This document shows, piece after piece, positions 12,513-63,484 of a DNA stretch of 64,000 nucleotides. Where the stretch lies: NCBI GenBank assembly GCA_947498935.1, contig CANMMM010000016.1, positions 61,611 to 125,610 of the forward strand. The letters run 5' to 3'. Within the stretch, counting starts at the first letter, position 1; the number at the start of each line of letters is the position of its first letter. The stretch is from an uncultured Aquimarina sp. (lineage in GTDB: Bacteria > Bacteroidota > Bacteroidia > Flavobacteriales > Flavobacteriaceae). The position numbers and the translations under genes were made by a program. The notes below the pieces were generated by a model. The model worked only from the letters and a program-made list of their open reading frames with translations, was not told the DNA's origin and ran no database searches.

Positions 12513-14918
12513 ATGATCACAAATACTGAATTAGAGCACAAAGGGAATTTGTTTCCAGGAAAAATAATCTCCTTTTCGCAAGACGTCGATAAAATAAGCT
12601 TTATTACTGAGAATGATGTTATCCTACAAGTCACCATTATTAGAGGAAGCGTCATTCGTTTTAGGTATGCAACGGATAACAATGTAGAAAAAGATTTTTC
12701 ATACGCTATTAGCGAAAAAGGAGCGAGAGGGTATAGTGAATTAACAGTTAGTGAACTAGAGGATACCTATGAGATTAGAACCAAAAAAGTATGTGTATAT
12801 GTTGCTAAAGAGCATCTAAACGTTACTGTAAAGGATATAGAAGGCAATATTATATGCAAGGATGAGCTAGGATTCCATTGGGAGCAAAGTTATGAGTTTG
12901 GAGGAAATATTGTAAAAATGAGTAAAGTAGCTCCACAAGGAGAATGCTACTATGGATTAGGTGATAAGCCGATGCACCTGAATCTAAAAGGAAAGCGAGT
13001 AGAGAATTGGGCTACAGATCAATATGCATTCGGTAAAGACCAAGACCCTCTATACAAAAGTGTACCTTTTTACATTGGGATGCACGAACAGCGTGCTTAT
13101 GGTATCTTTTTCGATAATACGTTTAAGACCTTTTTTGATTTCTGTAATGAGCGTCGTAATGTAACCAGTTTTTGGGCACACGGAGGAGAAATGAACTATT
13201 ATTTCTTCTATGGACCCCAAATGCAAGATGTAGTGGTACGCTATACCGATCTGACAGGAAAACCAGAATTACCACCATTATGGTCCTTAGGATACCATCA
13301 GTGTAAATGGAGTTATTACCCAGAAAGTAATGTAAAGGAAATCACAGCAAAGTTTAGAGAACTTAGGATACCATGTGATGCCATTTACCTAGACATTGAT
13401 TATATGGAAGGGTTTCGTTGTTTTACATGGAGCAAAGAGTATTTTCCAGATCCAAAGCGTATGGTTACTGAACTAGCCGAAGATGGGTTTAAAACGATCG
13501 TAATCATAGATCCAGGGATTAAGATAGACAAAGATTATTGGGTGTATCAGGAAGCCATGGACAATGACTATTTCTGTAAGCGTGCAGATGGCCCATATAT
13601 GCGAGGAAAAGTATGGCCAGGAGAATGTTTCTTTCCAGATTTTACCAATCCTGTAGTCAGAGAATGGTGGGCAGGTTTATTTAAAGAGCTTATCGATGAG
13701 ATCGGCGTAAAAGGTGTGTGGAATGATATGAATGAGCCAGCTGTTATGGAAGTGCCAGGGAAAACATTTCCAGGAGATGTACGACATAATTATGATGGTA
13801 ACCCATGTAGCCATAGAAAAGCACATAATATATACGGTACGCAGATGGCTAGAGCTACCTACGAGGGCATCAAGCGATTTGCTTATCCAAAACGTCCGTT
13901 CGTAATCACACGATCGGCTTATTCAGGAGCGCAGCGGTATACATCTTCTTGGACAGGTGATAATGTAGCCACATGGGAACATTTATGGATTGCCAATATC
14001 CAAGCACAACGAATGAGTATGAGTGGTATGTCATTTACAGGAAGTGATATTGGGGGATTCGCAGAACATCCTACAGCAGAGCTGTATGCGCGTTGGATAC
14101 AGCTAGGAGTATTCCACCCCTTCTGTAGAACACACTCGTCAGGTGATCACGGAAATCAAGAACCTTGGACTTTTGGAGAAGAAGTAGTAGATATTACCAG
14201 AAAATATGTAGAATTACGTTATCAACTATTACCCTATCTCTACACTATGTTCTGGGAATATGCAGAGGAAGGAATTCCTATGCTTAAATCACTAGTTTTA
14301 TACGATCAGTACGATCCACAAACACATTATAGAACTGATGAGTTTATTTTTGGAAATCAGATACTAGTCTGTCCAGTACAAGAACCTAATTCCAAAGGTA
14401 GAAGATTGTATATCCCTCGCGGAAATTGGTATAACTATTGGACGCAAGAGTATGTAAAAGGAGGAGCAGAGCAGTGGGTAGATGCAGATTTAGATATAAT
14501 TCCATTATTTATAAAAGAAGGAGCTATCATCCCTAAGTATCCTATCCAACAATATGTAGGAGAAAAAACAATAGACCAATTAGAGCTAGAGGTATATTAT
14601 AAATTAGGTAGTAAAGAAGTTTCTAAAGTATACGAAGATGCACAAGATGGTTATGATTATGCCAAAGGAAGGTTTAGTTTACTAAATTTCTCATTTACAG
14701 GAAAAGAAAACGAAATTATCATCCAGAAGCATAAGAATGGTACATATGACACCCCTTATGAAACAATGAAAATTCGATTCATAGGATTACCATTTAGTAT
14801 TGGTACTGTAGAAATAGATAATGTAACAGTACCTCTTAAAGAGGTGGGATATGATAAGCATACCGATATGCTAGTGGTTCCTAAAGATTTTTCTGAATTA
14901 CACATTGTTGCAAAATAA
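12513..14918 (+). CDS. Glycoside hydrolase family 31 alpha-glucosidase
   Basis: GVWNDMNEPAV nucleophile region; TGSDIGGF; 801 aa. Confidence 0.9.
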   Translation: MITNTELEHKGNLFPGKIISFSQDVDKISFITENDVILQVTIIRGSVIRFRYATDNNVEKDFSYAISEKGARGYSELTVSELEDTYEIRTKKVCVYVAKEHLNVTVKDIEGNIICKDELGFHWEQSYEFGGNIVKMSKVAPQGECYYGLGDKPMHLNLKGKRVENWATDQYAFGKDQDPLYKSVPFYIGMHEQRAYGIFFDNTFKTFFDFCNERRNVTSFWAHGGEMNYYFFYGPQMQDVVVRYTDLTGKPELPPLWSLGYHQCKWSYYPESNVKEITAKFRELRIPCDAIYLDIDYMEGFRCFTWSKEYFPDPKRMVTELAEDGFKTIVIIDPGIKIDKDYWVYQEAMDNDYFCKRADGPYMRGKVWPGECFFPDFTNPVVREWWAGLFKELIDEIGVKGVWNDMNEPAVMEVPGKTFPGDVRHNYDGNPCSHRKAHNIYGTQMARATYEGIKRFAYPKRPFVITRSAYSGAQRYTSSWTGDNVATWEHLWIANIQAQRMSMSGMSFTGSDIGGFAEHPTAELYARWIQLGVFHPFCRTHSSGDHGNQEPWTFGEEVVDITRKYVELRYQLLPYLYTMFWEYAEEGIPMLKSLVLYDQYDPQTHYRTDEFIFGNQILVCPVQEPNSKGRRLYIPRGNWYNYWTQEYVKGGAEQWVDADLDIIPLFIKEGAIIPKYPIQQYVGEKTIDQLELEVYYKLGSKEVSKVYEDAQDGYDYAKGRFSLLNFSFTGKENEIIIQKHKNGTYDTPYETMKIRFIGLPFSIGTVEIDNVTVPLKEVGYDKHTDMLVVPKDFSELHIVAK

Positions 14919-20072: not shown

Positions 20073-20191
20073 ATTATAAAAAATTGAAACTGCTTCTTAA
20101 TTAAATGAAGATACTACTTAATTTTAGAAGTTATTATTTTTTGAAGATGAAAAGTGTTATCCTATTTTTTCAATTTTTTGCGGTATTACTT

Positions 20192-20279
20192 GCGTTAGGG
20201 ATAGGAGCGGCATCCTTTTTTGGTTTTTTGTAAAACCAAAAAAGATACAGCGGATAGCCCGACCCTTGTGGTAACGCCC
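20192..20279 (+). repeat. Dispersed repeat family A, copy A3 (central module 2)
   Basis: GCGTTAGGGATAGGAGCGGCATCCTTTTTTGGTTTT...AAAACCAAAAAAGATACAGCGGATAGCCCGACCCTTGTGGTAACGCCC. Confidence 0.93.
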
Positions 20280-38582: not shown

Positions 38583-39494
38583 TTAGTTTACAATAATTTC
38601 TATTCTTCTATTTTTTGCCCTGTTTTCTGGCGTGTCATTAGGAACTGCAGGCGCTAATTCTCCTTTGGAACTGGCTTTTAGTTTTTCAGCTTCAATTCCT
38701 TTAGATTTGAAATAACGAAGTACATTTCTAGCTCTGGATAAGCCAAAAGCTTGATTCTGTTCATTACTTCCTACATTATCTGTATGTCCTGTAATTAACA
38801 CTTTTTTAGAAGGATATTTGGTTAAATAGTTTTTGAGTTCTAAAGTGTAGTTGGCTAAAGTAGCGTCGGGTTTAAAACTAGTCGTACCGAAGTCTGAATA
38901 CAATGTTTTATTGGCGATACCTTTTTCTATTTCTTCGATTCTATCAGTATCGATTGCATGGAAGTTTAAGAGGATTCCTCCTTTGTAATGACCGTTAGGA
39001 TTGTAAGTATAGTCTTCTAACTTAGATTGTGCTAGAATTCTATCTCCGTTAATACCACCATCAGTTATTAAGAGGTTTTTGATAAAATTAGCTCTAGCTA
39101 ATCCTAAGCTGTCTCCAGTGTTTTTTTCTGCGAGTGTTTCATATCCATAGATAATAATATCTTGATCCTGATGAATACCAAGATGGTTTGCTATTTTGCT
39201 AGGAAAATCAGCAATACTATCTGGTATAAATACGGTGCCATCAGTGTTATTAATACGTAGGTTTTCTGGATACCTAAAGACATCATTGTTTTGTAGGTCT
39301 TTAGCGTATAAGCCATGCGCGAGTGCAAGACTGTCTTCATACGCTTTTTTGGCAAGTGCAGCTGCCTTAGGGTCTATTTTTTCTTCTACTGCTGCACTGC
39401 TATGATTGCCGAGGCACCAACTACAGGAGTAGTACCACCACATCCCTAGCATAGCAAAGAGAAGAAAAAGTAAAAAAGAAAATAAAATTCTCAT
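38583..39494 (-). CDS. OmpA family protein
   Basis: C-terminal VLITGHTDNVGSNEQNQAFGLSRARNVLRYFKSKGI...NRRIEIIV. Confidence 0.88.
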   Translation of the reverse strand: MRILFSFLLFLLFAMLGMWWYYSCSWCLGNHSSAAVEEKIDPKAAALAKKAYEDSLALAHGLYAKDLQNNDVFRYPENLRINNTDGTVFIPDSIADFPSKIANHLGIHQDQDIIIYGYETLAEKNTGDSLGLARANFIKNLLITDGGINGDRILAQSKLEDYTYNPNGHYKGGILLNFHAIDTDRIEEIEKGIANKTLYSDFGTTSFKPDATLANYTLELKNYLTKYPSKKVLITGHTDNVGSNEQNQAFGLSRARNVLRYFKSKGIEAEKLKASSKGELAPAVPNDTPENRAKNRRIEIIVN

Positions 39495-39632: not shown

Positions 39633-39640
39633 TAATTTTG
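39633..39640 (+). promoter_or_regulatory. Candidate his promoter -7 box (TAATTTTG)
   Basis: Matches Bacteroidetes TAnnTTTG, 22 bp upstream of the leader ATG; no good -33 box seen. Confidence 0.55.
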
Positions 39641-39661
39641 CAATCGTGAAAATAAAACAAC

Positions 39662-39718
39662 ATGAAAAGCATTTTTTTACATCATCATCATTCCTATACT
39701 TTCGCTCAAGCGTGGTAG
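39662..39718 (+). CDS. his operon leader peptide MKSIFLHHHHSYTFAQAW
   Basis: 18-codon ORF with four consecutive His codons, directly upstream of terminator and hisG. Confidence 0.9.
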   Translation: MKSIFLHHHHSYTFAQAW

Positions 39719-39750
39719 GTTTGATATATGTATAAAATCAGTATAAGTAT

Positions 39751-39785
39751 AAACCCGTTTGAGCAATTCAAACGGGTTTTTGTTT
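39751..39785 (+). terminator. his attenuator terminator
   Basis: AAACCCGTTTGA gcaat TCAAACGGGTTT TTGTTTTG, 12-bp stem. Confidence 0.9.
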
Positions 39786-39827
39786 TGTAAACTAGTGAGA
39801 ATTGATCAAACACAACAAATCATAATA

Positions 39828-40685
39828 ATGTCGAAAATTAAAATTGCGATCCAAAAAAGTGGAAGGTTAAACGAAGATTCTGTAAACATCTTAAAAGATT
39901 GTGGGATTTCTATAGATAATGGTAAAGACCAATTAAAAGCTACTACTAGAAATTTTCCAATGGAGGTGATGTTTCTTCGCAATGGTGATATTCCTCAATA
40001 TCTAAGAGATGGTGTGGTAGATATAGCTATTATTGGTGAGAATGTATTGGTAGAGAAAGGAGAAGATATTACTATCGTAGAACGATTAAACTTTTCTAAA
40101 TGCAAAGTATCATTAGCTGTACCTAAAGACTTTAATTATACTTCTATTCAGGATTTAGAAGGAAAGAAAATCGCGACTTCATACCCTAATACTGTAAAGT
40201 CGTATTTAAAAGAGAAAGGAATTAATGCAGATTTACATCAAATTTCTGGTTCTGTAGAGATTGCTCCTAATATCGGACTGGCAGATGCGATTTGCGATAT
40301 TGTGTCTAGTGGAAGTACATTATTTAAAAATAATTTAAAAGAAGTAGAAGTAATGCATACCTCAGAGGCGGTATTGGCGGTTTCTCCTAAAATATCAGCA
40401 TCGAGTAAAGAGCTTTTAGAAAAACTACAGTTTAGAATTAAAGCAGTATTAAAGGCTAGAGCTTCGAAATATGTTTTATTAAATGCTCCAAATGATAAGA
40501 TTGATAAAATTGTTCAGATTTTGCCAGGGATGCGAAGCCCAACGGTATTGCCACTTGCTGAAAAAGGATGGAGCTCTATACATACGGTAGTAGAAAAAAA
40601 TAAGTTTTGGGATATTTTGGATGAACTGAAAGCAGAAGGTGCTGAAGGTATTTTAGTATGTCCAATAGAGAAAATGGTGCTATAA
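39828..40685 (+). CDS. hisG: ATP phosphoribosyltransferase (ORF opens at 39759 inside the attenuator; start at 39828 preferred)
   Basis: MSKIKIAIQKSGRLNEDSVNIL; LADAICDIVSSGSTL. Confidence 0.94.
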   Translation: MSKIKIAIQKSGRLNEDSVNILKDCGISIDNGKDQLKATTRNFPMEVMFLRNGDIPQYLRDGVVDIAIIGENVLVEKGEDITIVERLNFSKCKVSLAVPKDFNYTSIQDLEGKKIATSYPNTVKSYLKEKGINADLHQISGSVEIAPNIGLADAICDIVSSGSTLFKNNLKEVEVMHTSEAVLAVSPKISASSKELLEKLQFRIKAVLKARASKYVLLNAPNDKIDKIVQILPGMRSPTVLPLAEKGWSSIHTVVEKNKFWDILDELKAEGAEGILVCPIEKMVL

Positions 40686-40703: not shown

Positions 40704-41987
40704 ATGCAAAAGATATATGCTCCTAATAAGAGTGACTGGGATGTACTGCTAGAAAGGCCTACACAAACAGTGGCAGATATAGAAGGAACTGTACTGGCTG
40801 TTTTTGATGCTATAAAAGCAAAAGGTGATGAAGCGGTTAATGCGTATACGAAACAATTTGATCAGGTAACGATCGATACTATTTTAGTTAGTGCTGATGA
40901 AATTGCTGAAGCTACAACACTTATTGATGATGAATTAAAGGAGGCGATACAGTTAGCTAAAAATAATATAGAGGTTTTTCATAAAGCGCAAAAAACGAGC
41001 CAAGTGCATGTAGAAACAACTACAGGAGTGGCTTGCTGGCAAGAAAAAAGGCCTATCCAAAAAGTAGGATTATATATACCAGGAGGGACAGCTCCTTTAT
41101 TTTCTACAATATTGATGTTAGCAGTACCAGCTACGCTAGCAGGCTGTAATGAGATTGTATTGTGTTCTCCTCCTAATAAAGAAGGTAAAATACATCCTGC
41201 TATTTTGTATACTGCGCATCTTTGCGGTGTTACTACTATTTGCAAGGTAGGGGGTATACAGGCTATTGGAGGAATGACTTTTGGTACAGCATCTATACCA
41301 AAGGTGTATAAGATATTTGGTCCCGGAAATCAATTTGTAACGGTGGCGAAACAATTGGCTACTAAATTTTCGGTAGCTATCGATATGCCTGCTGGTCCTA
41401 GTGAATTATTAGTTGTAGCGGATGATACGGCTAATCCAGCGTTTGTAGCTTCGGATTTATTGAGTCAGGCAGAGCATGGAAAGGATAGTCAGGTTATTCT
41501 GGTAACGACTTCTAAAGAACTGATGTCGGCTGTAGCAGAAGAAGTGATCACACAATGTGCTGTATTGCCTAGAGAAGAAATTGCTACCGCTGCTATTGCA
41601 AACTCTAAAATGATTTATGTAGAAGATGATGCTACTGCGATTGAATTGATCAATCTATACGGACCAGAGCATTTTATTGTATGTGTAGAAGATGAGGATT
41701 TTTACATAGACAATATTGTTAATGCGGGTTCTGTGTTTATAGGTAATTATACGCCTGAAAGTGCAGGAGATTATGCTTCGGGTACGAATCATACACTGCC
41801 TACAAATGGATATGCAAAACAATACAGTGGTGTGAATTTGGATAGTTTTATGAAGGCCATGACATTTCAGAAAATCACGGCAGAAGGTATCCAAACCATT
41901 GGACATGCAATAGAAAAGATGGCAGCAGCCGAAGGTTTAGAGGCACATAAAAATGCTGTAACATTGCGATTGAAAAGCTTGCAATAA
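40704..41987 (+). CDS. hisD: Histidinol dehydrogenase
   Basis: VGLYIPGGTAPLFST; GPGNQFV; PAGPSELLVVAD. Confidence 0.95.
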   Translation: MQKIYAPNKSDWDVLLERPTQTVADIEGTVLAVFDAIKAKGDEAVNAYTKQFDQVTIDTILVSADEIAEATTLIDDELKEAIQLAKNNIEVFHKAQKTSQVHVETTTGVACWQEKRPIQKVGLYIPGGTAPLFSTILMLAVPATLAGCNEIVLCSPPNKEGKIHPAILYTAHLCGVTTICKVGGIQAIGGMTFGTASIPKVYKIFGPGNQFVTVAKQLATKFSVAIDMPAGPSELLVVADDTANPAFVASDLLSQAEHGKDSQVILVTTSKELMSAVAEEVITQCAVLPREEIATAAIANSKMIYVEDDATAIELINLYGPEHFIVCVEDEDFYIDNIVNAGSVFIGNYTPESAGDYASGTNHTLPTNGYAKQYSGVNLDSFMKAMTFQKITAEGIQTIGHAIEKMAAAEGLEAHKNAVTLRLKSLQ

Positions 41988-42031
41988 GTAAGCGTTTAGT
42001 TTTTGGTGAAATAGCTTAGTACTGATGAATA

Positions 42032-43084
42032 ATGAATACAATACCATTTAATATAGAAAAACTAATTAGAGATAATATCAAGGGACTAAAGCCTTATTCG
42101 TCTGCTAGAGATGAATATGTGTCTGATGGTTCTGAGATGACATTTCTCGATGCGAATGAAAACCCATATGAAAATGGAGTAAACAGATATCCAGACCCAC
42201 AGCAGCGTAGCTTAAAAAAGGTGTTGGCTACCCAAAAGGGAGTGACAGTAGACAATATATTGTTAGGTAATGGAAGTGACGAAGTACTCGATTTGATTTT
42301 TAGGGCTTTTTGTGAGCCTAAGCAAGATACAATTCTCACATTACCTCCTACATATGGAATGTATAAGGTATTAGCTAATATTAATAATATAGAAGAACAC
42401 GAGGTAGTATTGACTAAGGATTTTGAACCTGATGTTGATGCAATACTGGCAGCCGTAACAAACAGAACCAAATTGCTGTTTTTGTGCTCTCCTAATAATC
42501 CTACAGGAAATTCTTTTTCGGATACGGCTATTGAAAAGTTATTAACTAGTTTTTCTGGGCTAGTAATTATTGATGAGGCGTATATAGATTTTTCTTCTAA
42601 AGAGAGTTGGGTTACGAAAATAAATACATATCCTAATCTAATAGTGACACAAACCTTGTCAAAAGCGTATGGACTAGCAGGGATACGTCTTGGGCTATGT
42701 TATGCTTCTAAAGCCATCATTGCTGTATTGAATAAAATTAAACCGCCCTATAATGTAAATGAACTGACACAGCAGCGTGCGTTAGATCGTGTATTGGATG
42801 TGGATAGGGTACAGCATGAAGTAGCTGCGATACTAAAGGAAAGAGAAGTTTTGGTAAAGGCGCTAGCAGCAATAAATTTCGTCACTAAAATTTATTCTAC
42901 AGATGCGAATTTTGTACTGGCTGTTGTTGATAACGCAACGAAGCGTTATGATCAGTTGCTCGCTAAAGGGGTGGTTGTAAGAAATAGAACGACACAGCCT
43001 TTGTGTGAGAATACATTGCGATTTACGATTGGTACTCCGCAAGAGAATGAACGATTAATAGCTGCATTACAGGCATTAGAATAA
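42032..43084 (+). CDS. hisC: Histidinol-phosphate aminotransferase
   Basis: GNGSDEVLDLIFRAF; SPNNPTGN; SKAYGLAGIRLG. Confidence 0.94.
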   Translation: MNTIPFNIEKLIRDNIKGLKPYSSARDEYVSDGSEMTFLDANENPYENGVNRYPDPQQRSLKKVLATQKGVTVDNILLGNGSDEVLDLIFRAFCEPKQDTILTLPPTYGMYKVLANINNIEEHEVVLTKDFEPDVDAILAAVTNRTKLLFLCSPNNPTGNSFSDTAIEKLLTSFSGLVIIDEAYIDFSSKESWVTKINTYPNLIVTQTLSKAYGLAGIRLGLCYASKAIIAVLNKIKPPYNVNELTQQRALDRVLDVDRVQHEVAAILKEREVLVKALAAINFVTKIYSTDANFVLAVVDNATKRYDQLLAKGVVVRNRTTQPLCENTLRFTIGTPQENERLIAALQALE

Positions 43085-43197
43085 AGCATAAAAAAGTATC
43101 CTATAAAATTGGATTGATATAAGCGTTATGAAACAAGCTAGTATAAGAGTTATAATACTTAGGTTTGTTACATATGCCCTTTAAAACAATAAAATAG

Positions 43198-44334
43198 ATG
43201 AAAAAGAAAGTATTATTTATAGATAGAGATGGTACTATCATAAAAGAAACGGTTGATGAACAAATCGATGCGTTCGAAAAAATGACATTTTATCCTAAGG
43301 CATTTACTTTTTTGGGTAAAATAGCGAAAGAGTTGGATTATGAATTGGTAATGATTACGAATCAGGATGGATTGGGAACGGATGTGTTTCCTGAGGATAC
43401 TTTTTGGCCAGTGCATAATTTTATTTTGCAATCTTTTGAAAATGAAGGAGTGGTGTTTGATAAGGTGTTCTTAGATCGAACATTTCCGCATGAGAATGCG
43501 AATACTAGAAAACCGGGTACAGGTTTATTGACTGAGTATTTTTCGGAGGCGTATGATTTAGAAAATTCTTTTGTGATTGGTGATCGACTCACAGATATTG
43601 AATTAGCAAAAAATCTAGGTGCAAAAGGGATTTATATCAATGATGAAACGCATTTAGGTACAGGCGAAATTACGGTTAAAAGAGAAGAATTAGATACTAT
43701 AATTGCATTAGAATCTAATGACTGGGAGGCGATTTATGAGTTTTTAAAGTTACAAGATCGCGTAGCTGAGATTACGAGAAAGACGAATGAAACGGATATC
43801 TATATTCAAGTAAATCTTGATGGAACTGGAAAGAGTACTATTGCTACTGGTTTGGCATTTTTTGATCATATGTTAGATCAGATTGCTAGACATGGACAGA
43901 TGGATCTAACAGTGAAGGTACAAGGAGATTTAGAGGTAGATGAGCACCATACGATAGAAGATACAGCGATAGCACTTGGAGAGGTATTTGGTACTGCACT
44001 GGGGAATAAGCTGGGAATTGAACGTTATGGCTTTTGCTTACCAATGGATGATTGTCTAGCGCAAGTAGCGATAGATTTTGGAGGACGCAATTGGCTCGTT
44101 TGGGATGCGGATTTTAAACGTGAAATGATCGGTAAAATGCCTACAGAGATGTTTTATCACTTTTTTAAATCATTTACAGATGGTGCCAAAGCGAATTTGA
44201 ATATCAAGGCTGAGGGGACGAATGAGCATCACAAAATCGAAGCTATTTTTAAGGCATTTGCAAAAGCGATTAAAGTAGCTGTGAAAAGAGATCCAGAAAA
44301 AATGATTTTACCGAGTACGAAAGGTATGCTTTAA
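43198..44334 (+). CDS. hisB: Bifunctional histidinol-phosphatase / imidazoleglycerol-phosphate dehydratase
   Basis: HAD N-terminus [13 protein letters not shown] motif [14 protein letters not shown] and [17 protein letters not shown]. Confidence 0.95.
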
Positions 44335-44343
44335 TTATAGAGA

Positions 44344-44925
44344 ATGAAGATAGTCATTATAAATTATGGTGCGGGTAATATTCAATCCATCAAGTTTGCG
44401 ATTCAGCGACTGGGGTATGAAGCGATATTAAGTGATGATCCTGCTACGATTATATCCGCAGATAAAGTGATTTTTCCAGGTGTTGGTGAGGCGAGTAGTG
44501 CTATGAAAAAACTACGGGCTTCTGGTCTGGATACTATTATACCTACATTACGACAGCCTGTGCTAGGTATTTGTTTAGGCATGCAATTGATGTGTGCGTA
44601 TACAGAGGAAGGAGAGACTGAAGGACTCGGTATTTTTGATGTAGCAGTAGAGCGATTTAATAGTGGAGTAAAGGTGCCACAAATCGGTTGGAATCAGATT
44701 CGATCGCTTTCCTCTCCATTGTTTGATGGGGTTACTGAAGATGAATATGTGTATTTAGTACATAGCTACTATGCGCCTATAACACCTTATACAGTGGCTA
44801 CTACTTCTTATGGTACGGATTACACAACGGCATTGCATAAAGATAATTTTTATGGGACGCAGTTTCATCCCGAAAAAAGTAGTAGTGTGGGAGAGAAAAT
44901 TTTATTGAATTTTTTAAATAGCTAG
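44344..44925 (+). CDS. hisH: Imidazole glycerol phosphate synthase, glutaminase subunit
   Basis: NYGAGNIQSIKFA; LGICLGMQLM; GTQFHPEKSS. Confidence 0.95.
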   Translation: MKIVIINYGAGNIQSIKFAIQRLGYEAILSDDPATIISADKVIFPGVGEASSAMKKLRASGLDTIIPTLRQPVLGICLGMQLMCAYTEEGETEGLGIFDVAVERFNSGVKVPQIGWNQIRSLSSPLFDGVTEDEYVYLVHSYYAPITPYTVATTSYGTDYTTALHKDNFYGTQFHPEKSSSVGEKILLNFLNS

Positions 44926-44990
44926 TGTAGTTGATTTTTATAAGGAGCAAGTTTTATGAATTATTTTTTTAATATATCATAGATGTAATT

Positions 44991-45078
44991 GCGTTAGGGA
45001 TAGCAGTGGAAATCCCACAGCCCGACGGTAGGAGGAGCGAGGAATTGTAGCGGATAGCCCGACCCTTGGGGAACGCCC
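44991..45078 (+). repeat. Dispersed repeat family A, copy A5 (central module 1), within the his operon
   Basis: GCGTTAGGGATAGCAGTGGAAATCCCACAGCCCGACGG...CCCTTGGGGAACGCCC. Confidence 0.93.
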
Positions 45079-45139
45079 AAATACTAGTGAAAATGAATCT
45101 ATAAAACGACACGATAATTATAGTATAAATACGATTTTA

Positions 45140-45889
45140 ATGAGAATAATACCAGCAATAGATATTATAGATGGGAAGTGTGTACGTCTCTCAAAAGGAG
45201 ATTATGATACGAAAAAGGTATATAATGAGCATCCTTTAGAGGTAGCTAAGCAGTTTGAAGATCATGGGATTACCCATTTGCATTTAGTAGACTTGGATGG
45301 TGCAAAATCGAAGCATATTGTAAATCATGCTATTTTAGAACAAATTGCTGTAAAGACGCAATTAAAGGTTGATTTTGGTGGTGGATTAAAAACGGATGAG
45401 GATTTAAAAATTGCTTTTGAAAATGGTGCAAATCAGGTTACTGGAGGAAGCATAGCAGTGAAAGATCCGAATACTTTTAAATCTTGGTTGACCAAGTATG
45501 GAAGTGAGAAAATTATTTTGGGAGCAGATGCCAATAATGAAAAAATAGCTGTCAGCGGTTGGCTAGAAGAGAGTGACCAAGAATTGATTCCGTTTATTAA
45601 ATCCTATCAAAAAGAAGGGGTTTCATACGTGATCTGTACAGATATTAGTAAGGATGGAATGCTAGAAGGGCCTTCTTTTGATGTATACAAAAGAATTTTA
45701 GCTGCATGTGAGACTACAGGTACAGGAGATCAAAAATTACAATTGATCGCTTCTGGTGGGATTTCTACTTTTGAAGAGTTACCTAAATTGGCAGCTATGG
45801 GATGTGAAGGTACGATTATCGGAAAGGCGATTTATGAAAATAGAATTAGTCTAAAGCAGTTAGAAAATTATATACTTCAAGGTGCTTAA
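45140..45889 (+). CDS. hisA: Phosphoribosylformimino-5-aminoimidazole carboxamide ribotide isomerase
   Basis: [33 protein letters not shown]. Confidence 0.95.
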
Positions 45890-45937
45890 TAACTATTGGT
45901 GTCTAATTTTTTGTTAGATACACTAAATGATTGATTT

Positions 45938-46693
45938 ATGTTAACTAAAAGAATTATACCTTGTCTAGATATTAAAAATGGACGTACTGTAAAGGGGGTG
46001 AATTTTGTAGATTTGCGCGATGCAGGTGACCCTGTAGAATTGGCGCAATTATACTCAGATGCAGGGGCTGATGAGCTGGTGTTTCTGGATATTTCTGCTA
46101 CGGAAGAAAGACGAAAAACATTAGCAGATTTAGTGCTGCGAGTAGCAGAAAAAGTAAATATACCCTTTACTGTAGGAGGTGGGATAGCTTCTGTAGAGGA
46201 TGTAGATATTTTATTACAGAACGGAGCTGATAAGGTATCTGTAAATTCTTCTGCGGTACGTAATCCAGAGTTAATTAATGAACTATCGGGAAAATTTGGG
46301 AGTCAGTGTATAACAGTAGCTATTGATGCTAAACAAATTGATGGTGAATGGATCGTACATTTGGTAGGAGGAAAAGTACCTACATCTCTTAATTTATTTG
46401 AATGGGCTAAAGAGGTGGCAGCACGTGGGGCTGGTGAAATTTTATTTACATCGATGGATAATGATGGTACTAAAGACGGTTTTGCAAACGCAGCATTAGC
46501 TAGGTTATCAGAAGAGTTAACGATTCCTGTGATTGCTTCGGGTGGTGCTGGTACGATACAGCATTTTGTAGATACATTTACAGAAGGTAAATCAGATGCT
46601 GCTCTGGCTGCAAGTATTTTTCATTTTAAAGAGATTGAAATCAGTGATCTAAAAAAAGAACTTGACAATAATAACATTCCTGTACGCTTATAG
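45938..46693 (+). CDS. hisF: Imidazole glycerol phosphate synthase, cyclase subunit
   Basis: [38 protein letters not shown]. Confidence 0.96.
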
Positions 46694-46739
46694 TATACTC
46701 TCTATAGAATATTAGAGATTAATTTGGTTAGATATAATT

Positions 46740-47336
46740 ATGGAAATAAATTTTAATAAAAATAATGATGGTTTAGTACCTGCGATTATTCAGGATGCTG
46801 ATACTAAAAATGTACTGATGCTTGGTTATATGAACGAAGCAGCGTATGAAAAAACAATGGCTACTGAAAAAGTTACTTTTTATAGTCGTACGAAACAACG
46901 TCTATGGACGAAAGGTGAGGAGAGTGGTCATTTCCTGAAATTAGTGGATATCCAAAATGATTGTGATACTGATACATTATTACTAACGGTGCACCCTGTT
47001 GGACCTACCTGCCATGAAGGTACTGATACTTGCTGGGGACAAGAAAATACACAAACTTTTGGTTTTTTATCTACATTAGAACAGACGATACAAGATAGAA
47101 AGGACAATCAAGATGATGAACAATCGTATGTAGCCTCTTTGTTTCGAAAAGGAATGAATAAAATAGCACAAAAAGTAGGAGAAGAGGCTGTAGAAGTAGT
47201 GATAGAAGCTAAGGATGATAATGAGAAACTGTTCTTAGATGAGAGTGCAGATCTACTATTTCATTATTTAATTTTATTAAAAGCAAAAGGGTATTCATTA
47301 AATGATGTTGTAGAGGTTTTAAAGTCAAGAGGTTAG
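46740..47336 (+). CDS. hisIE: Bifunctional phosphoribosyl-AMP cyclohydrolase / phosphoribosyl-ATP pyrophosphatase
   Basis: VLMLGYMNEAAYEKT; FYSRTKQRLWTKGEESGH; KVGEEAVEVVIEAK. Confidence 0.95.
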   Translation: MEINFNKNNDGLVPAIIQDADTKNVLMLGYMNEAAYEKTMATEKVTFYSRTKQRLWTKGEESGHFLKLVDIQNDCDTDTLLLTVHPVGPTCHEGTDTCWGQENTQTFGFLSTLEQTIQDRKDNQDDEQSYVASLFRKGMNKIAQKVGEEAVEVVIEAKDDNEKLFLDESADLLFHYLILLKAKGYSLNDVVEVLKSRG

Positions 47337-56773: not shown

Positions 56774-56782
56774 ATTTTAAAT

Positions 56783-56869
56783 GCGTTAGGGATAGTAGCG
56801 GCATCCTTTTTTGGTTTTCTGAAAAACCAAAAAAGATACAGCGGATAGCCCGACCCTTGGGGAACGCCC
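56783..56869 (+). repeat. Dispersed repeat family A, copy A6 (central module 2)
   Basis: GCGTTAGGGATAGTAGCGGCATCCTTTTTTGGTTTTCTGAAAAACCAAAAAAGATACAGCGGATAGCCCGACCCTTGGGGAACGCCC. Confidence 0.93.
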
Positions 56870-63300: not shown

Positions 63301-63388
63301 GGGCGTTACCACAGGGGTCGGGCTATCCGCTATATCTTTTTTGGTTTTTCAGAAAACCAAAAAAGGATGCCGCTGCTATCCCTAACGC
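63301..63388 (-). repeat. Dispersed repeat family A, copy A7 (central module 2)
   Basis: Reverse complement GCGTTAGGGATAGCAGCGGCATCCTTTTTTGGTTTTCTGAAAAACCAAAAAAGATATAGCGG...GACCCCTGTGGTAACGCCC. Confidence 0.93.
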
Positions 63389-63484
63389 AAGGAAATGGTT
63401 TTTAAAAGAAAAATAAGTCACAATTTCTGTAACTGCTTTCTTTTTACTCATTGTTGTGTCATCTAAGTCTATGTGTGCTAATTT

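Follow-up and report, generated by a model that had tools for sequence, protein, structure and literature searches.

A probable ribosome-mediated transcription attenuator before the histidine operon of an Aquimarina sp. and its relatives

A run of four His codons in a short open reading frame, followed by a hairpin and a T-rich tract, precedes hisG in the genome of an uncultured Aquimarina sp., which raises the question of whether this flavobacterium controls histidine biosynthesis by ribosome-mediated attenuation and, if so, how far such control extends among its relatives. In Escherichia coli, the his leader contains seven His codons. Gene regulation in the phylum of Aquimarina has been little studied, and the literature found ascribes his attenuators to Proteobacteria, with new ones described in some Firmicutes (PMC9413887, 2022), and the available text of a survey covering the his genes of this superphylum refers to attenuation in enterobacteria alone (PMC8305728, 2021). 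The closest precedent is a study of Flavobacterium psychrophilum, the available text of which reports a conserved structured element upstream of hisG that has no Rfam hit and is conserved in other genera, as well as hints of attenuation by leader peptides ahead of amino-acid operons (PMC9723704, 2021). The locus described here lies in a window of 64,000 nucleotides, this being the whole stretch of DNA that was analysed.

The initial annotation had placed the element at the head of a histidine operon, and this is borne out, since hisG is the first gene of a complete his operon in which all matches are above curated cut-offs (Table 1). The preceding gene (38583-39494) lies on the minus strand, with its direction of transcription pointing away from the terminator, so the his operon needs its own promoter. 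A candidate is a promoter-like box that agrees with TAnnTTTG, a consensus spanning positions -12 to -5 that was obtained from mapped transcription starts in F. psychrophilum, according to the available text of that study (PMC9723704). Judged by this putative promoter, transcription would be expected to start at about 39644-39648. Among 62 relatives, 33 have a TAnnTTTG box in the 60 nt that precede the leader ATG, compared with 3.3 expected. At one relative (L046) and similar loci the box ends 6-9 nt before the leader ATG, such that the mRNA of the leader peptide would be nearly leaderless.

Table 1. Positions in the window of the leader elements and of the his genes; a single number is the start of a gene.
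Feature	Position	Strand	Basis or remark
Promoter-like -7 box TAATTTTG	39633-39640	+	Sequence; matches Bacteroidota sigma-A consensus TAnnTTTG
Leader peptide ORF MKSIFLHHHHSYTFAQAW*	39662-39718	+	Translation; present at nearly all Flavobacteriaceae hisG loci examined
Four His control codons, CAT x4	39680-39691	+	Sequence; His run conserved
Segment 1, protector 5' arm (His codons and next codons)	39678-39697	+	Fold, covariation
Segment 2, antiterminator strand (leader codons GCTCAAGCGTGG and first stop base)	39704-39716	+	
Protector 3' arm, including leader stop codon	39715-39732	+	Fold, covariation
Segment 3, terminator 5' arm, common to antiterminator and terminator	39751-39764	+	
Segment 4, terminator 3' arm	39768-39779	+	Followed by T-rich tail 39780-39786
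hisG, ATP phosphoribosyltransferase, first structural gene	39828-40685	+	TIGR00070, 191.6 bits, above cut-off
Rest of his operon	40704-47336	+	NCBIfam matches above cut-off
hisD	40704	+	
hisC	42032	+	
hisB (bifunctional)	43198	+	
hisH	44344	+	
hisA	45140	+	
hisF	45938	+	
hisIE	46740-47336	+	

The leader and its four His codons were confirmed to the base as first described, the stop codon being TAG (39716-39718). Regions upstream of hisG from Aquimarina, Maribacter, Zobellia, Muricauda, many more genera and other families of Bacteroidia were scanned, under a loose and a strict rule, for an ORF with a His run no more than 300 nt from hisG. Such a leader is present at 172 (loose) or 163 (strict) of 173 Flavobacteriaceae loci, some of which represent the same species twice, and at 42 (loose) or 39 (strict) of 45 loci from other families of the class. 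Dinucleotide shuffling predicts 1.8 (family) and 2.0 (class) by the loose rule and 0.4 and 0.0 by the strict rule, and the reverse strand yields three and one, and two and none, respectively. In several family loci that fail the strict rule the His run is interrupted (HHTH, HRHH or HYHH, for example).

Three helices can be drawn in this leader region, the fold of which as a whole has a z-score of -4.4 relative to dinucleotide shuffles (0/200 as good). The terminator (3:4), previously assigned to 39751-39779 plus a T-rich tail, has precisely those limits; its arms AAACCCGTTTGA (39751-39762) and TCAAACGGGTTT (39768-39779) form a stem of -16.3 kcal/mol that is followed by TTGTTTTG, a T tract broken by a G. 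In the antiterminator (2:3), GCTCAAGCG(T)GGT at 39704-39716 pairs with ACCCGTTTGAGC at 39753-39764 through 12 base pairs, one of them G-U (G39710-U39758), with U39713 bulged, and each of these pairs agrees with the initial annotation. This duplex has an energy of -19.3 kcal/mol (z = -4.8), a value that none of 2000 shuffles matched. The earlier list of elements, comprising the terminator and the antiterminator, thus stands for both of these and was incomplete in lacking the protector hairpin (1:2, -14.8 kcal/mol), the two arms of which together enclose the antiterminator strand.

Both of the helices proposed earlier are conserved, and compensatory changes occur in all three, when the hisG upstream regions of 62 Flavobacteriaceae are aligned. 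In this alignment 99.4% of cells are paired in the terminator, 94% in the antiterminator with its bulge as first drawn, and 80% in the nine-pair core of the protector (columns 37-45 with 63-71). Measured against shuffling controls that ignore shared ancestry, double-sided changes affect seven pairs of the terminator (1.1 in shuffles) and four of the antiterminator (1.4 in shuffles), and the protector core has 50 double-change cells (20.9±3.8 in shuffles). Every helix pairs best at a slide of zero, and shifting one partner by one to three columns sharply reduces pairing. Within segment 2, the third position of the Ala codon (column 60) is a paired G in 61 of the 62 leaders, which points to a constraint on the RNA rather than on the peptide. 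In the protector helix, the middle base of the stop codon changes in concert with a base some seven codons before it (U-A in 31 leaders, C-G in 13), and hence the choice between TAA or TAG and TGA follows that helix.

How the position of a ribosome would select among these helices was modelled by cutting the transcript before the 3' arm of the terminator and masking a footprint of -17 to +13 around the A site. The stalling logic proposed in the initial annotation, whereby a ribosome halted on the His codons frees 39704-39716 and one at the stop codon covers it, operates in this masking model in all 62 species: the antiterminator forms in 62 of 62 with the ribosome at the His codons and in 1 of 62 with the ribosome at the stop codon. 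In the Aquimarina leader, antiterminator pairing declines once the A site is two to three codons past the last His codon. The protector state is less clear in this leader than in L046, L146 and similar relatives, as its truncated RNA favours 2:3 over 1:2 when no ribosome is present. Since 2:3 still forms without a ribosome in 58% of species in the truncated model, the best support for the protector state comes from covariation and from the order of events during transcription, not from equilibrium energies. For the full-length RNA at equilibrium, the terminator is preferred in every ribosome state, and the switch must therefore be kinetic and co-transcriptional, as it is in known attenuators.

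Taken with the masking model, these elements suggest that the leader very probably attenuates transcription of the his operon in the classic ribosome-mediated manner, and its operation can be envisaged as follows. The leader peptide would be translated while RNA polymerase is transcribing the leader. If charged His-tRNA were short, a ribosome would stall on the His codons (39680-39691), disrupting 1:2 and leaving 39704-39716 free, and segment 2 could then capture the 5' arm of the terminator before its 3' arm is made, permitting read-through into hisG. With plentiful histidine, the ribosome would reach the stop codon at 39716 and cover the antiterminator strand, such that the 3:4 terminator could form. 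If the leader were not translated, the protector hairpin would hold segment 2 and termination would again be favoured. The same leader might instead act mainly through translational coupling or translation-dependent stability of the mRNA, which would fit with the start of hisG being only about 48 nt past the terminator and with the statement, in the available text of the F. psychrophilum study, that Bacteroidota do not rely on Shine-Dalgarno sequences (PMC9723704). This is nevertheless very unlikely to be its main mode of action, because practically all relatives retain the 3:4 hairpin with a T-rich tail and the hisG start lies outside that hairpin.

The distribution of the presumed attenuator was examined with a covariance model built from the 62 aligned leaders, which matches 269 of 301 Flavobacteriaceae genomes (E<=0.01), of which set 253 were found to have hisG. 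The excess of matches appears to consist of weak ones, mostly to other terminators. On inspection, those with E above about 1e-5 proved to be mostly other terminators rich in A+T or the same palindrome read on its reverse strand and, for this reason, were not counted as further attenuators. In the wider class the model matches 30 of 149 genomes, as would be expected if the sequence, and not the device, were specific to the family. The terminators of other families are indeed different (for example, AAGGCTTACC, GCCCGCC, AAAGCCCTGAC and AAAGCCCACC), and most leader ends in these families are complementary to their own terminator. For 12 representatives, taken from clusters of terminator arms that have no 7-mer in common, the pairing of leader tail with cognate terminator averages -14.8 kcal/mol compared to -10.2 kcal/mol for non-cognate combinations, and 0 of 20000 permutations reached the mean of the cognate pairs; two of the 12 (L078 and L203) are individually unconvincing.

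These comparisons also bear on the idea that the terminator serves some other RNA, a transcript from upstream or a small RNA, and that the His run is there by coincidence. The hairpin is a nearly perfect palindrome and could terminate transcription in both directions, but the upstream gene, on the minus strand as noted above, reads away from it. Moreover, the His run, the complementarity of the leader tail and the terminator are kept jointly before hisG in nearly all relatives, and leader tail and terminator co-evolve across unrelated terminator sequences. Joint conservation practically refutes a coincidence, the probability of which is considered to be close to nil. A broader proposal, for which we put the chances at about even, is that control of his operons by histidine attenuation is ancestral across the class Bacteroidia and involves one inherited leader that kept its control codons, with the complementarity of segments 2, 3 and 4 rewritten many times in step and the sequence almost frozen within Flavobacteriaceae. 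Three segments that co-evolve repeatedly provide a case for how attenuators change their sequence and keep their function.

Some loci depart from the general pattern. A small clade (L078, L147 and L165) has HHTHR or HHTHH leaders upstream of hisG together with a wholly different terminator, AAGTCCTTCCTGA...TCAGGAGGGACTT, and its antiterminator is weak (-8.9 kcal/mol, no better than shuffles). Among more distant families of the phylum, some loci (such as L285-L287 and L292) have His-rich leaders and terminators. Others (L289, L291 and L293) have ORFs with scattered His codons upstream of hisG, for example MKRTKLHISHPHHDVHHLHQGHHHA, and no obvious terminator, possibly representing a different way of using His codons.

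The attenuator proposed here for Aquimarina resembles that of enterobacteria (hisL, RF00514) in having a leader with His codons, alternative antiterminator and terminator structures, and a location directly upstream of hisG. It differs in having mostly three to five His codons instead of seven, a simple 1:2 / 2:3 / 3:4 layout of about 120 nt, and an antiterminator strand located within the coding sequence of the leader and extending as far as its stop codon. The sequences are unrelated, as the initial annotation had supposed, with no match of the element to His_leader (RF00514) at the gathering score or at E<=10. The protector, antiterminator and terminator logic is shared with the trp attenuator (trpL, RF00513), although the control codons here are His, and Trp_leader scores 17.6 bits against the element (E 0.4), below the cut-off of 41. 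Searches of Rfam at gathering and relaxed (E<=10) thresholds gave no credible family for the element, and this includes the T-box, which controls his genes in Firmicutes (PMC9413887). Direct sensing of His-tRNA or a ligand by a T-box or other riboswitch, in which case the short ORF would be incidental, is accordingly of almost negligible probability, given also that the leader is short, that its structure is accounted for by ribosome position, and that a His run beside the switch would have no role in a T-box.

The candidates in Firmicutes share short leader peptides with three to five consecutive His codons before terminator and antiterminator hairpins and the lack of an RF00514 match, but they are from another phylum and are likened here by organisation rather than by sequence (PMC9413887). 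The F. psychrophilum element agrees in position, gene and taxon and is likened here by description rather than by sequence, as the main text available gives neither its sequence, helices and leader peptide nor its phylogenetic depth (PMC9723704). From these reports, the superphylum survey (PMC8305728) and the lack of a His_leader match, the element is a known kind of device that was partly anticipated. It is very probably ordinary ribosome-mediated histidine attenuation, well supported, and the mechanism is not new. Candidate attenuators in Bacteroidetes/Chlorobi are reportedly mentioned in an abstract by Vitreschak et al. from 2004. What is added is a description, base by base and including covariation, of an RNA element that lacks an Rfam family and is situated before hisG in most Flavobacteriaceae. 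This yields a ready covariance model and what would be, for flavobacterial genetics, a natural switch responsive to histidine.

The organism appears to use this type of device elsewhere, as a leader ORF with two Trp codons (MNIILTTSWWNTQYAIVVR, WW) and a terminator (GGCTTGTC...GACAAGCC) are found upstream of a trpE homologue on the minus strand of its genome (L254, about 717-840), probably constituting a tryptophan attenuator. A simple scan gave no leader for its ilvD, and an exact-pattern search of the same genome found the his terminator and leader motif at the hisG locus only.

Two loci in other genomes seem to be remnants. In a genome without a full hisG (L229/L284; G027 contig 11, about 14341-14521), an intact His attenuator with the leader MNNSFLHHHHILFHALAR stands before a short fusion in which the start of hisG is joined to the end of hisIE, with corA next, and in the sister genome (L283, G256) the same flanks enclose the entire his operon. 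An internal deletion of the operon seems to have occurred naturally here and to have left the switch before corA. A sodium:solute symporter at this locus had been considered as an attenuator-controlled histidine transporter and was rejected because the element faces corA. The second locus (L230; G274 contig 39, 17872-17980), in a genome that yielded no hisG, has a degenerate leader, MNLICTHNLNMPSHIRTC, and the conserved terminator following an SPFH/Band 7 gene, and is probably a relic. Apart from the his leader, the window also contains three copies of the Flavo-1 RNA motif (RF01705), at 20187-20268 and 56775-56859 on the plus strand and at 63312-63393 on the minus strand.
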